Positions 19,538 through 22,639 of a stretch of 64,000 nucleotides of DNA are shown piece after piece. Source of the stretch: Cyanobium sp. FACHB-13342 (GTDB lineage: Bacteria; Cyanobacteriota; Cyanobacteriia; PCC-6307; Cyanobiaceae). How positions within the stretch are numbered: position 1 is the first letter of the stretch; each line of letters starts with the position of its first letter. The translations under genes were made by a program, and so were the position numbers. A model generated the notes under the pieces. That model worked only from the letters and a program-made list of their open reading frames with translations, had not been told where the DNA came from and ran no database searches. Location: assembly GCF_014697415.1 (NCBI RefSeq), contig NZ_JACJRT010000009.1, positions 1-64,000 on the forward strand, written 5' to 3'.

Positions 19538-20062
19538 TCAGCCCTCCGCCACCGCCTCGATCGCCGCCGCGATGGCCTGGCGCTGGTCGGCGTCGTAGCC
19601 CCAACGCTCCAGGAAGGCCACGTCGTCACCCTCGCCTGCTGTTGCAGCCAGCAGGGTTTCCAGGCGCTGCTTCACCGCCTGGGGCTCCAGGCCCCGCAGC
19701 AATTCGGTGCAGCGGGCCTGGACCCGCTCGGAGGCAGCCTGCTGGGCCCCATCCCCGGTCCGCCGGTGGTGCAGCACCATCGCCGTGCTCATCGCCAGGT
19801 TGCGGGCCGACAGGTCCACCACCCCCTCCCCGGCCAGCCGCAGCTGCAGCAGCAGCGGTTCGGGCAGCCGATCCATCAGGGGGGCATCACCGGCCAGACT
19901 CACCACGAAAAAACCGCGGGCGCCATCCCTGCTGGCCACCAGCTCGGCCACCCGATCAGCCAGCACCTCGTCGCTGAGTTCCCCGTTCTCCCAGAGGGCC
20001 AGCCACTGGGCGGTGATCTCCATGGCCTGCTGGAAGGTGGGTTGGCGAGGAGCTGGGGTCAT
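19538..20062 (-). CDS. Conserved hypothetical protein
   Basis: A 174-residue soluble, mostly helical protein beginning MTPAPRQPTFQQAMEITAQW. It is rich in Leu, Ala and Glu, with a central ARGFFVVSLAGD stretch and no catalytic motif that can be recognised. The start at 20062 is chosen because upstream residues are Arg/Cys-rich and do not look like coding sequence. It precedes the exported hydrolase by 11 bases and is divergent from the acetolactate decarboxylase gene. Confidence 0.7.
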   Translation of the reverse strand: MTPAPRQPTFQQAMEITAQWLALWENGELSDEVLADRVAELVASRDGARGFFVVSLAGDAPLMDRLPEPLLLQLRLAGEGVVDLSARNLAMSTAMVLHHRRTGDGAQQAASERVQARCTELLRGLEPQAVKQRLETLLAATAGEGDDVAFLERWGYDADQRQAIAAAIEAVAEG

Positions 20063-20120
20063 CGCGGTGGACAGAAGTGGCATGCAACAGCAGCCTATGG
20101 GCGTTGCCCGCATCGCTTCG

Positions 20121-20975
20121 ATGTCCCGCCACCGCCATGGGTTGCAGCTGCACCTGCCGGAGGGCCACCGCCGGGCCCTGGAGGACCATTGCCGTCGCAC
20201 GGGCGAGAGCGCCGACCACGTGCTGCGGGCGGCCCTGGGCGACTATCTCGACCTGGAGCACCACACCCTCTGGCAGGTGTCCACCTCCACGGCCGTGGTG
20301 GAGGGCGTGTCCCAGGGCTGCCTGCGGGTGGGCGAACTGGCCAGCCACGGCGATTTTGGCCTGGGCACCTTCGACCACCTCGATGGCGAAGGGGTGCTGC
20401 TGGAGGGCGAGTGCTGGCAGGCCCGGGCCGATGGATCCCTGAGCCGAGCCCCCGACGACGAACTGACGCCGTTCTTTGTGGTGACCCATTTCCACAGCGA
20501 CCAGCAGCACCAGTTCGAGCAGGTGACCAGCTGGGCCGACCTCTGCAGCCGCCTCGACGCGTTGCGGCCCAGCGACAACCTCTTCATGGCCATCCGGGTG
20601 CGCGGCCTGCTGGATCGCCTTGAGGTGCGCACCGTCAGCGCCGTGGAGACGGGCACGGACCTGGAGGCCGCCGCCGCGGTCCAGACCGTGTTTGACCACC
20701 GCAACCTGGGCGGCACCCTGGTGGGCTTCTGGTCGCCGCGTTACGTCAGCAGCCTGAACATCCCTGGTTATCACTTCCATTTCCTCAGCGACGATCGCCA
20801 GTGCGGCGGCCACGTCCTGGAGAACGGCGCCCTGGAAGCCGCCCGGTTGACCGTGGAGTTGCACCTGGAATCCGACCTGCGGGTGGCCCTGCCCCAGACG
20901 CGCGACTTCCTCCAGGCTGACCTCAGCCGCGATCCCAGCGAAGCCCTGGCCCGGGCCGAAGCCAAACCCTGCTGA
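20121..20975 (+). CDS. budA: Alpha-acetolactate decarboxylase with N-terminal ribbon-helix-helix-like extension
   Basis: Acetolactate decarboxylase converts (S)-2-acetolactate to acetoin, diverting carbon from valine/leucine synthesis. In this 284-residue protein the catalytic domain begins near residue 49 (LWQVSTSTAVVEGV). It has GDFGLGTFDHLDGEGVLLEGE, FFVVTHFHSD, SPRYVSSLNIPGYHFHFLSDDRQCGGHV. His218, His220 and His231 keep the spacing of the known zinc ligands (H194/H196/H207 in the Brevibacillus enzyme), so activity is likely. The first ~45 residues (LQLHLPEGHRRALEDHCRRTGESADHVLRAALGDYL, split here for length) are not part of the family and look like a CopG/Arc ribbon-helix-helix. Start codon uncertain among 20121, 20097 and 20082. 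Confidence 0.87.
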   Translation: MSRHRHGLQLHLPEGHRRALEDHCRRTGESADHVLRAALGDYLDLEHHTLWQVSTSTAVVEGVSQGCLRVGELASHGDFGLGTFDHLDGEGVLLEGECWQARADGSLSRAPDDELTPFFVVTHFHSDQQHQFEQVTSWADLCSRLDALRPSDNLFMAIRVRGLLDRLEVRTVSAVETGTDLEAAAAVQTVFDHRNLGGTLVGFWSPRYVSSLNIPGYHFHFLSDDRQCGGHVLENGALEAARLTVELHLESDLRVALPQTRDFLQADLSRDPSEALARAEAKPC

Positions 20976-21001: not shown

Positions 21002-21931
21002 ATGGAGTTTCCCGCGACCATCCCGGCCCTGCCCACGAGCCCTGAGGGCTTTCGCTCCGGCTTCGTGGCCCTGATCGGCCGGCCCAACGTGGGCAAATCC
21101 ACCCTGCTCAACCAGTTGGTGGGCGAAAAGGTGGCGATCACCTCGCCGGTGGCCCAGACCACCCGCAACCGGCTGCGAGCCATCCTCACCACCCCGGCAG
21201 CCCAGCTGGTGCTGCTCGACACCCCGGGCATCCACAAGCCCCACCACCTGCTCGGAGAGCGGCTGGTGCAGAGCGCCCGGGGCGCCATCGGCGAGGTGGA
21301 TGTGGTGCTGCTGCTGGTGGACGGCAGCGAACCCGCCGGCCGGGGTGATGGCTTCATCGTGGAGCTGCTGCAGCACTGCCGCGCCCCGGTGCACGTGGCC
21401 CTCAACAAGAACGACCTGGTGGATCCGGAGCGGGCCGAAGGGCTGGCGCAGAGCTACCGCGAGCTGGCGGGCGACTGGCCCCTCCACCCGGTGAGCGCCC
21501 TCAGCGGCGAGGGCACCGAAGCCTTGGTGGCCGCCCTGGCCGCCGACCTGCCGGAGGGGCCCCACCTCTATCCCCCGGATGCGGTGAGCGATCAGCCCGA
21601 GCAACTGCTTCTGGCGGAACTGATTCGCGAGCAGGTGCTGCACCACACCCGCGAGGAGGTGCCCCACTCGGTGGCGGTGCAGATCGAGCGCATCGTTGAC
21701 GACGGCCCCCGCACCGCCGTGCTGGCCACCGTGCTTGTGGAGCGCAGCAGTCAGAAGGGGATCCTGATCGGCAAAGGTGGCCGCATGCTCAAGGAGATCG
21801 GCAGCGGCGCCCGCCAGCAGATGCAGAAGCTGATCGACGGGCCGGTGTATCTGGAGCTGTTCGTGAAGGTGGTGCCCAACTGGCGCCGCAGCGCCGCCCG
21901 CCTGAGCGAACTGGGCTACCGGGGCGACTAG
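21002..21931 (+). CDS. era: GTPase Era
   Basis: Era is a Ras-like GTPase that binds 16S rRNA near its 3' end and helps 30S maturation. The 309-residue protein has G1 GRPNVGKS, switch II DTPGIHKP, NKND as G4 and SALSGEG as G5, followed by a C-terminal KH domain with the GKGGRMLKEIGSGARQQMQKL signature. Length is normal. It stands 26 bases after the decarboxylase gene, and a toxin-antitoxin pair follows. Confidence 0.96.
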   Translation: MEFPATIPALPTSPEGFRSGFVALIGRPNVGKSTLLNQLVGEKVAITSPVAQTTRNRLRAILTTPAAQLVLLDTPGIHKPHHLLGERLVQSARGAIGEVDVVLLLVDGSEPAGRGDGFIVELLQHCRAPVHVALNKNDLVDPERAEGLAQSYRELAGDWPLHPVSALSGEGTEALVAALAADLPEGPHLYPPDAVSDQPEQLLLAELIREQVLHHTREEVPHSVAVQIERIVDDGPRTAVLATVLVERSSQKGILIGKGGRMLKEIGSGARQQMQKLIDGPVYLELFVKVVPNWRRSAARLSELGYRGD

Positions 21932-21971: not shown

Positions 21972-22199
21972 ATGCAGGTCAACCTCCACGACGCCAAGAC
22001 CCATCTCTCCCGCTACGTGGAGCAGGCACTCGATGGCGAGGAGGTGGTGATCGCCCGGGCCGGCAAGGCCCTGGTGCGTCTGGTGCCGGTGGATGAGACC
22101 CCTCGCCAGCGCGAACTCGGCTTTCTACGGGGGTCTGCTGTTCTGGACTGCGACCTCAAAGCCGACTTCCAGGAGGACATCGAATCGATGTTCGGCTGA
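21972..22199 (+). CDS. Phd/YefM-type antitoxin
   Basis: The 75-residue protein has the N-terminal DNA-binding fold of Phd antitoxins (MQVNLHDAKTHLSRYVEQAL...GEEVVIARAGKALVRLVP), and a short C-terminal tail (FQEDIESMFG) that would wrap around the toxin. Its stop codon shares one base with the start of the PIN-domain gene. Such antitoxins usually repress their own operon. Confidence 0.9.
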   Translation: MQVNLHDAKTHLSRYVEQALDGEEVVIARAGKALVRLVPVDETPRQRELGFLRGSAVLDCDLKADFQEDIESMFG

Positions 22200-22639
22200 T
22201 GGAAACAGCCAGCTCAAGCCAACCGAATTTGAGCCCGCAACTGCTCGACACCCAGCTGCTGCTCTGGCTGGCCATCTCCCCGGAACGCCTACCGGCAGCG
22301 TTGTGTGGAAACCTCCGTGATCGCCGCTTGCCGTTGCTGTATAGCGTTGTGAGCCTCTGGGAAGTGGCGATCAAAACCTCCCTCGGCAAACCCGGATTCC
22401 TCGTCGACGCCACGCAGTTGCGTGACGGGCTGAAACAGCAGGGTCTTCAGGAACTGGGAATCGCGCCTGAACACTGCCTGGCCGTGCAGCACCTGCCCTG
22501 GATCCATCGCGACCCCTTCGACCGGCTGCTGGTGGCCCAGGCCATCCAGGCGGAGCTCACCCTGCTCACGGCCGATCGCATCCTCAGCGGCTACGGGGCC
22601 CAGGTGGTTTGGGTGGGCAACGCGAGTCCTGGCGACTGA
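22199..22639 (+). CDS. vapC: PIN-domain ribonuclease toxin (VapC-like)
   Basis: A 146-residue PIN-domain protein of the type paired with Phd antitoxins. The metal-binding acids are all present: Asp in LLDTQLLLW, Glu in SLWEVAIK, Asp in HRDPFDRLLVAQA and Asp in LLTADRIL, so the nuclease is probably active, cutting tRNA or other RNA. Its G+C is slightly below its neighbours. It starts on the last base of the antitoxin stop, the usual coupling. The pair sits between two core genes, era and the lyase gene. Confidence 0.9.
   Translation: METASSSQPNLSPQLLDTQLLLWLAISPERLPAALCGNLRDRRLPLLYSVVSLWEVAIKTSLGKPGFLVDATQLRDGLKQQGLQELGIAPEHCLAVQHLPWIHRDPFDRLLVAQAIQAELTLLTADRILSGYGAQVVWVGNASPGD

Follow-up and report, generated by a model that had tools for sequence, protein, structure and literature searches.

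An acetolactate decarboxylase with an N-terminal ribbon-helix-helix-like domain in Cyanobium sp. FACHB-13342 and its relatives

Described relatives and the gene in the window

In repressors of the ribbon-helix-helix (RHH) type, the outward residues of the strand read DNA, and in antitoxins the RHH domain binds a toxin partner. To our knowledge, enzyme-fused RHH domains are known chiefly from PutA. The trifunctional PutA, in which an N-terminal RHH domain is likewise joined to a metabolic enzyme (proline dehydrogenase/P5C dehydrogenase), is a proven RHH enzyme-repressor, and an RHH domain can turn a monomeric enzyme dimeric, according to the passages on these subjects in PMC5293562. Acetoin fermentation has been credited to Black Sea Synechococcus from gene content (PMC6776005, PMC8955281), and the extra N-terminal domain described here goes unmentioned in the passages of both papers on acetoin fermentation. 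No description of an RHH domain fused to acetolactate decarboxylase (ALDC) was found in the open-licence literature searched.

In the present study, such a fusion was analysed in a 64,000-nucleotide stretch of Cyanobium sp. FACHB-13342 (contig NZ_JACJRT010000009.1, positions 1 to 64,000), hereafter the window; the genome as a whole measures 2.37 Mb. The reading frame opens with an ATG at 20121 and its stop codon ends at 20975, and the closest named matches of the encoded ALDC are Cyanobium and Synechococcus records. In the window's lineage, synteny places era on one side of the gene and, on the other, a divergent gene whose family is unknown; the features are as follows.

19538..20062, minus strand: conserved gene in divergent orientation, 174 aa, family unknown, adjacent to the ALDC gene in the window's lineage (synteny; no Pfam or NCBIfam match at E<=0.01)
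20063..20120, no strand: 58 bp separating the divergent gene from the start codon of the ALDC gene, taken to be the promoter region; a conserved palindrome was not observed there
20121..20975, plus strand: gene for the fused protein, RHH module plus ALDC, 284 aa (translation; Pfam PF03306, E=6e-68; TIGR01252 over cut-off)
20136..20249, plus strand: RHH module, residues 6-43, with a presumed strand at about 8-12, helix A at 14-27 and helix B at 31-42 (AlphaFold2 models; RHH_1 on orthologues; profile match)
20250..20264, plus strand: short junction, residues 44-48 (DLEHH), pLDDT 66 for the block 41-50 (full-protein model; alignment)
20265..20933, plus strand: ALDC catalytic domain, residues 49-271 (Pfam, NCBIfam and PDB alignment; Foldseek to 4bt3)
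20772..20813, plus strand: H218, H220 and H231, presumed zinc ligands, invariant in 40 sequences
21002..21931, plus strand: era GTPase gene, directly downstream of the ALDC gene in the window's lineage (NF000908 and TIGR00436 over cut-off; synteny)

The window protein shares its catalytic fold, zinc histidines, E90 and R170 with the known ALDCs (AlsD/BudA, PF03306, TIGR01252; PDB 4bt3 and 5xne). PF03306 covers residues 50-269 with 228.9 bits against a cut-off of 25, and the NCBIfam model TIGR01252 scores 202.8 bits against 180.65. The AlphaFold2 model of the full protein, obtained from a 40-sequence alignment, has a mean pLDDT of 89.8 and superposes on ALDC crystal structures, with a Foldseek TM-score of 0.95, normalised by the target, for 4bt3. 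H218, H220 and H231, which we take to be the zinc ligands, and E90 and R170, which we take to be active-site residues as in ALDC structures, are unchanged in all 40 aligned ALDCs, consistent with the earlier claim that the zinc ligands are intact. By its sequence, the window protein is a zinc-dependent ALDC with intact catalytic residues and predicted activity. In contrast with the solved ALDCs, which align only from residues 47-50 of the window protein onward, it carries an extra N-terminal RHH module. Hydrophobic N-termini that look like signal peptides by eye are found instead in many plain ALDCs, a second cyanobacterial type among them. A signal peptide was considered and rejected, none being seen by eye in the fused members, and from this a cytosolic location is inferred.

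The N-terminal module and its distribution

The module is faint in the window copy and clear in its relatives. The window's own N-terminus matched NF048017 (RelB-like antitoxin) weakly (E=0.011, 15.9 bits against a cut-off of 50), the Pfam scan of the window protein gave no family match in the N-terminus, and an RHH_1 (PF01402) search of the window's genome returned three matches, the ALDC not among them. Among aligned ALDC N-termini tested singly, RHH_1 matched 13 of 23 at E<=1 (best 4.3e-6). With a query free of ALDC sequence, the search of 101 family genomes placed the N-termini of four ALDC orthologues, those of G061, G111, G101 and G024, over the cut-off of 20.5 bits (the four scores being 31.5, 24.8, 24.1 and 22.6 bits). 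When eight N-termini were scanned alone, two exceeded the cut-off (32.0 and 23.2 bits), one was a near miss at 20.1 bits, two scored 15-16 bits and three had no RHH_1 row. The RHH_1 search also revealed another RHH fusion in the window's genome (L169, G000:C17:257539), with an N-terminal RHH_1 domain of 25.2 bits, over the cut-off, and a DnaJ-like C-terminus of 26.3 bits, just below its cut-off of 27.8; RHH_1 matches in open frames of about 340-375 aa recur across many genomes of the window's family.

The alignment of the 23 N-termini is almost ungapped, with G28, L39, L43, T49 and Q52 invariant. A profile built from it selected 50 of 130 unique ALDCs at E<=1.4e-5, with the next best at E=0.37; many of the 50 belong to the profile itself or lie close to its rows, and 17 of the 130 gave no row (no match or a stretch shorter than 20 residues). 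Six of the 50 came from a search of another phylum and lie outside the profile (L182 with 72.5 bits, L184-L186 with 41-42 bits, L183 and L187 with 18 bits). The same profile matched short open frames in 8 of 59 genomes of the window's phylum at E<=0.001, the window's genome included; three of these frames were inspected and each has an RHH-like stretch by eye, and two of the free-standing RHH proteins have coiled-coil-like tails by eye.

Structure prediction is consistent with these profiles. In AlphaFold2 models, residues 1-52 alone (11 sequences, pLDDT 78.7) form helices at 14-27 and 31-50, and in the full protein the helices span 14-27 and 31-42, with pLDDT falling by block from 87 through 84 and 75 to 66 between residues 11 and 50. 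Residues 8-12 are non-helical and unpaired, and DSSP assigns no strand in these single-chain models, as would be expected of a ribbon that pairs only in the dimer. Foldseek gave 58 matches to the module at E<=10 and none at E<=0.001, the E-values beginning at 0.32, and the leading matches include 3ft7, CopG, StnY, the RHH domain of PutA, VapB, CdbA, MatP and Arc. VIA-align placed 32 of 62 chains at Z>=5, with a best Z of 6.4 and none above 8. The matches of both programs, which we take from their names to be mostly RHH proteins, are suggestive and agree with the sequence profiles, but are not proof. In a PDB profile search, CopG appeared at E=0.021. TALE repeats from that search were treated as chance, because each repeat scores below 4 bits in the three alignments shown and low whole-sequence E-values arise only from summed repeats; designed proteins and the glucokinase regulatory protein were likewise set aside as chance.

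An RHH-like domain on an intact ALDC is confirmed as real and conserved. It resembles RHH_1/CopG and RelB-like antitoxin domains in the profile that relatives match, in the two-helix spacing with a G-x-S/T turn and in predicted structure, and differs from them in being fused to an enzyme and in having strongly variable outward strand residues. The first-pass annotation had proposed such a domain ahead of the decarboxylase, and RHH_1 on orthologues, the AlphaFold helices and the module profile bear it out; its helix boundaries were right to within a few residues. Of the two findings that would have spoken against it, neither occurred: homologues keep the two-helix pattern in the profile matches, and the N-terminus is not a normal extension of the decarboxylase. 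The latter idea is rejected because PDB ALDCs begin to align only at residues 47-50, which puts the N-terminus outside the solved fold, and because the module has a profile of its own. The fusion was also found in other cyanobacteria, in genome searches and by the module profile.

In the window's family, 42 of 300 genomes have a match, of which 36 show one stretch that begins at residue 19 or earlier; 35 of these stretches are free of internal stops and the remaining one (G259) contains two. In G112 the module is covered by a second piece of the match, the RHH-ALDC there (L045, G112:C1:827097-827923) being broken into two frames near residue 84, either a decayed copy or a sequencing error. Partial matches make up the other five (in G105 beginning at residue 38; in G212, G099, G173 and G279 as fragments), and no intact plain ALDC was seen among the 300 genomes. 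In the window's class, 35 of 388 genomes have a match, some of which are plain ALDCs with hydrophobic N-termini. In the phylum of a metagenome-assembled genome titled Deltaproteobacteria, 46 of 297 genomes have a match to a query that starts at module residue 8; in seven of the 46 the match begins within the first six query residues, with N-termini that read as RHH (20 loci from the 46 genomes were inspected). The fusion is also carried by a plasmid of the alphaproteobacterial genus Ancylobacter, the one record inspected of the 30 listed from 171 in the plasmid search. One scan of viral contigs yielded no relative, and a viral origin was set aside.

For a first, quick tree, 130 rows were reduced to 83 by removing near-copies (>=85%) and 12 rows that were partial or divergent. 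The second tree, of 83 catalytic domains, left out L100 and added the Ancylobacter protein; in it the 28 fused rows all cluster together with seven plain rows (support 100/99). The plain rows are nested beside fused L183, and the branch uniting the 27 other fused rows has a support of 59/64. The fused or plain label needs two changes on the tree, which fits one gain and one loss, the tree being unrooted so that the direction of change is not readable from it. Judged from these comparisons, the fusion is old and common to Cyanobacteria, the deltaproteobacterial-type phylum and the Ancylobacter plasmid. L183 and L187 (G724 and G850) are fused, and yet their catalytic parts resemble a Geobacter-type ALDC branch otherwise without the module, L187 being placed there by sequence comparison outside the tree.

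Gene neighbourhood and the probable source of acetolactate

The neighbourhood of the fused gene differs among lineages. In a second cyanobacterial branch, an acetolactate synthase gene lies upstream, and the one copy scanned (G223) is AlsS by TIGR02418 (622.9 bits against a cut-off of 551.1). In eight contexts of this branch, an alsS match over the first 165 residues was present in six, broken in L133 and not found in L147. The alsS of L133 (G033:C27) lies in pieces with stops upstream of an open RHH-ALDC frame, as if the synthase were being lost and the decarboxylase were staying. The synthase gene lies directly downstream of the fused gene in L101, in G724 and in Ancylobacter, where plasmid pB of A. 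polymorphus (L200, 4986-7512) carries budA, its product having an RHH-like N-terminus, and alsS immediately after it. The seven contexts L137-L143 and the examined stretches of G719, G847 and G850 showed no alsS neighbour.

In nine genomes of the window's lineage, the protein closest to AlsS over its full length is 28-30% identical and is probably IlvB, and the nine yielded no AlsS-like gene; there, the amino acid pathway should therefore supply the substrate. In seven cyanobacteria that carry the fusion and are more distant, a match of 35-38% to AlsS lies elsewhere in the genome. Downstream of era, the window carries a pair of Phd/YefM antitoxin and PIN toxin genes (21972-22639, plus strand) before a CpeS-like gene; a PIN match was also present in L004/L057, and L002 and L003 lack a match to the PIN protein and have era closely followed by the CpeS-like gene.

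Pairing, DNA reading and other possible roles of the module

We favour, at a probability of about 0.5, a cytosolic ALDC that has captured a CopG/RelB-like RHH domain and uses it mainly as a built-in dimerisation module. Two N-termini would pair strand to strand with their helices interlocking, and this pairing would hold two catalytic domains together, or more with the ALDC's own interface. For the window's organism, the probable role of the enzyme is to divert acetolactate from an IlvB-type branched-chain amino acid synthase into acetoin, a source proposed because the search for an AlsS-like gene was negative; in sister lineages it would work beside AlsS. Dimerisation of the module within the full protein, and selection of the module for that function, are inferred.

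The main alternative is moonlighting of the PutA kind, in which the RHH dimer would act as a repressor at an operator close to the gene that encodes it or to the alsS-alsD operon, binding would be gated by the enzyme's substrate state, and each lineage would have evolved its own operator. This reading is possible, though we consider it rather unlikely. It has on its side the membership of the module in the RHH family, seen with RHH_1 on orthologues and the module profile, and the precedent of PutA (PMC5293562, in its passages on that protein). The alsS neighbours in six of eight contexts of one cyanobacterial branch, L101, G724 and Ancylobacter would suit an operon regulator too, whereas many fused genes have no such neighbour (the window type, L137-L143, G719, G847 and G850).

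The strand residues weigh against it. The module's strand positions 7, 9 and 11, which we take to be the outward, DNA-reading residues, have weighted entropies of 3.19, 2.57 and 2.30 bits, the first, eighth and eleventh most variable of 38 positions (42 rows), and the core positions 8, 12, 20, 38, 39 and 43 range from 0 to 1.0 bit. Outward residues differ even between close relatives: the RHH-ALDC triplets include GQH, AEH, DHR, HNS, PYN and VLA among others, position 9 is acidic in L002-L004 and L023, and L042/L046 carry Val-Leu-Ala. PutA, an unrelated enzyme, has T-G-K or T-G-R in the eight copies used, a uniformity that arises partly because the strand was located by a pattern asking for T, G and K or R; the rows were picked by eye and other triplets could be missed. 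The RHH was present in 9 of 30 PutA loci within the last 150 residues before the domain, and eight were used since L227 equals L225 there. At helix identities of 0.2-0.4, 0.4-0.6 and 0.6-0.8, outward residues were identical in 92, 95 and 85% for PutA (4, 7 and 11 pairs) and in 11, 24 and 43% for 41 RHH-ALDCs (334, 334 and 92 pairs). The presumed DNA-reading residues are thus not kept in this family as in PutA (11-43% against 85-95%). The variation argues against one conserved operator, not against lineage-specific ones, and in 13.4 of 21.1 weighted rows position 11 carries R, K or H, a feature shared with DNA-binding RHH proteins.

A minor point is the mean net charge, which is -0.12 for RHH-ALDC modules (n=41) and +1.23 for other RHH_1 domains of the same bacterial family (n=26; Mann-Whitney p=0.0009), minor because rows are related, ranges overlap and the 26 reference domains were hand-aligned. 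The reference comprises 30 loci minus L154 and L163 (domain misplaced), L164 (fused ALDC) and L175 (near copy of L166). L040, padded by two residues, counts among the 42 rows of the entropy set and the 41 of the charge set and was dropped from the 41-row identity test.

The upstream regions likewise offer little to a repressor. No shared operator was seen upstream of alsS, where the regions of seven genomes did not align, or in 16 sequences upstream of the window-type gene. Some of the 16 contain a short block like CAGNCTATGGGC, which would resemble a -10 region rather than an operator. A sigma-70 scan of the window's presumed promoter region found nothing, and the one palindrome near the window gene's start is not kept in L002. 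Conserved DNA binding by the module is not supported by these comparisons. A bolder version, in which the RHH-ALDC would have arrived at the PutA principle a second time and independently, as an acetolactate-sensing enzyme whose idle form represses alsS-alsD through operators that diverge fast in each lineage, seems more doubtful still.

Of the two functions offered in the first-pass annotation, then, oligomerisation is favoured over regulation, since most core positions are kept and outward strand residues vary; the moonlighting regulator found neither a shared operator nor PutA-like conservation of those residues. The module has more the look of a device for pairing than of a conserved DNA-reading domain. 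Several points count against the dimerisation reading. First, position 10, in the core of the strand, also varies (2.03 bits, 42 rows). Second, the strand core identity of a third cyanobacterial group is 0.40. Third, R, K or H is frequent at position 11. Moreover, ALDCs may already be dimeric without an RHH domain, in which case the need for a further pairing module is not obvious.

Docking of the enzyme to another protein, such as AlsS or a toxin-like partner, is quite unlikely: alsS adjoins in several lineages, and small free-standing RHH proteins, two of which end in coiled-coil-like tails by eye, are among the matches of the profile, but the window's lineage keeps the module and yielded no AlsS-like gene, and the turn G28-[EQ]-[ST] is the only exposed patch that stands out in the entropies. 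Least probable, and improbable by a wide measure, is a relic of an old fusion that still folds but has no function, a reading that the apparent single loss of the module (the seven plain rows beside L183) would suit and that the matches in the family genomes (36 of 42 beginning at residue 19 or earlier, 35 without an internal stop) and the module pattern kept across phyla oppose.

Preferring the dimerisation module, we regard the RHH-ALDC clade as a second natural system for the question whether an RHH fusion serves oligomerisation first and gene control later. In picocyanobacteria, for which acetoin fermentation has been proposed from gene content (PMC6776005, in its passages on this pathway), the fusion marks the branch point at which acetolactate goes to acetoin or to branched-chain amino acids.
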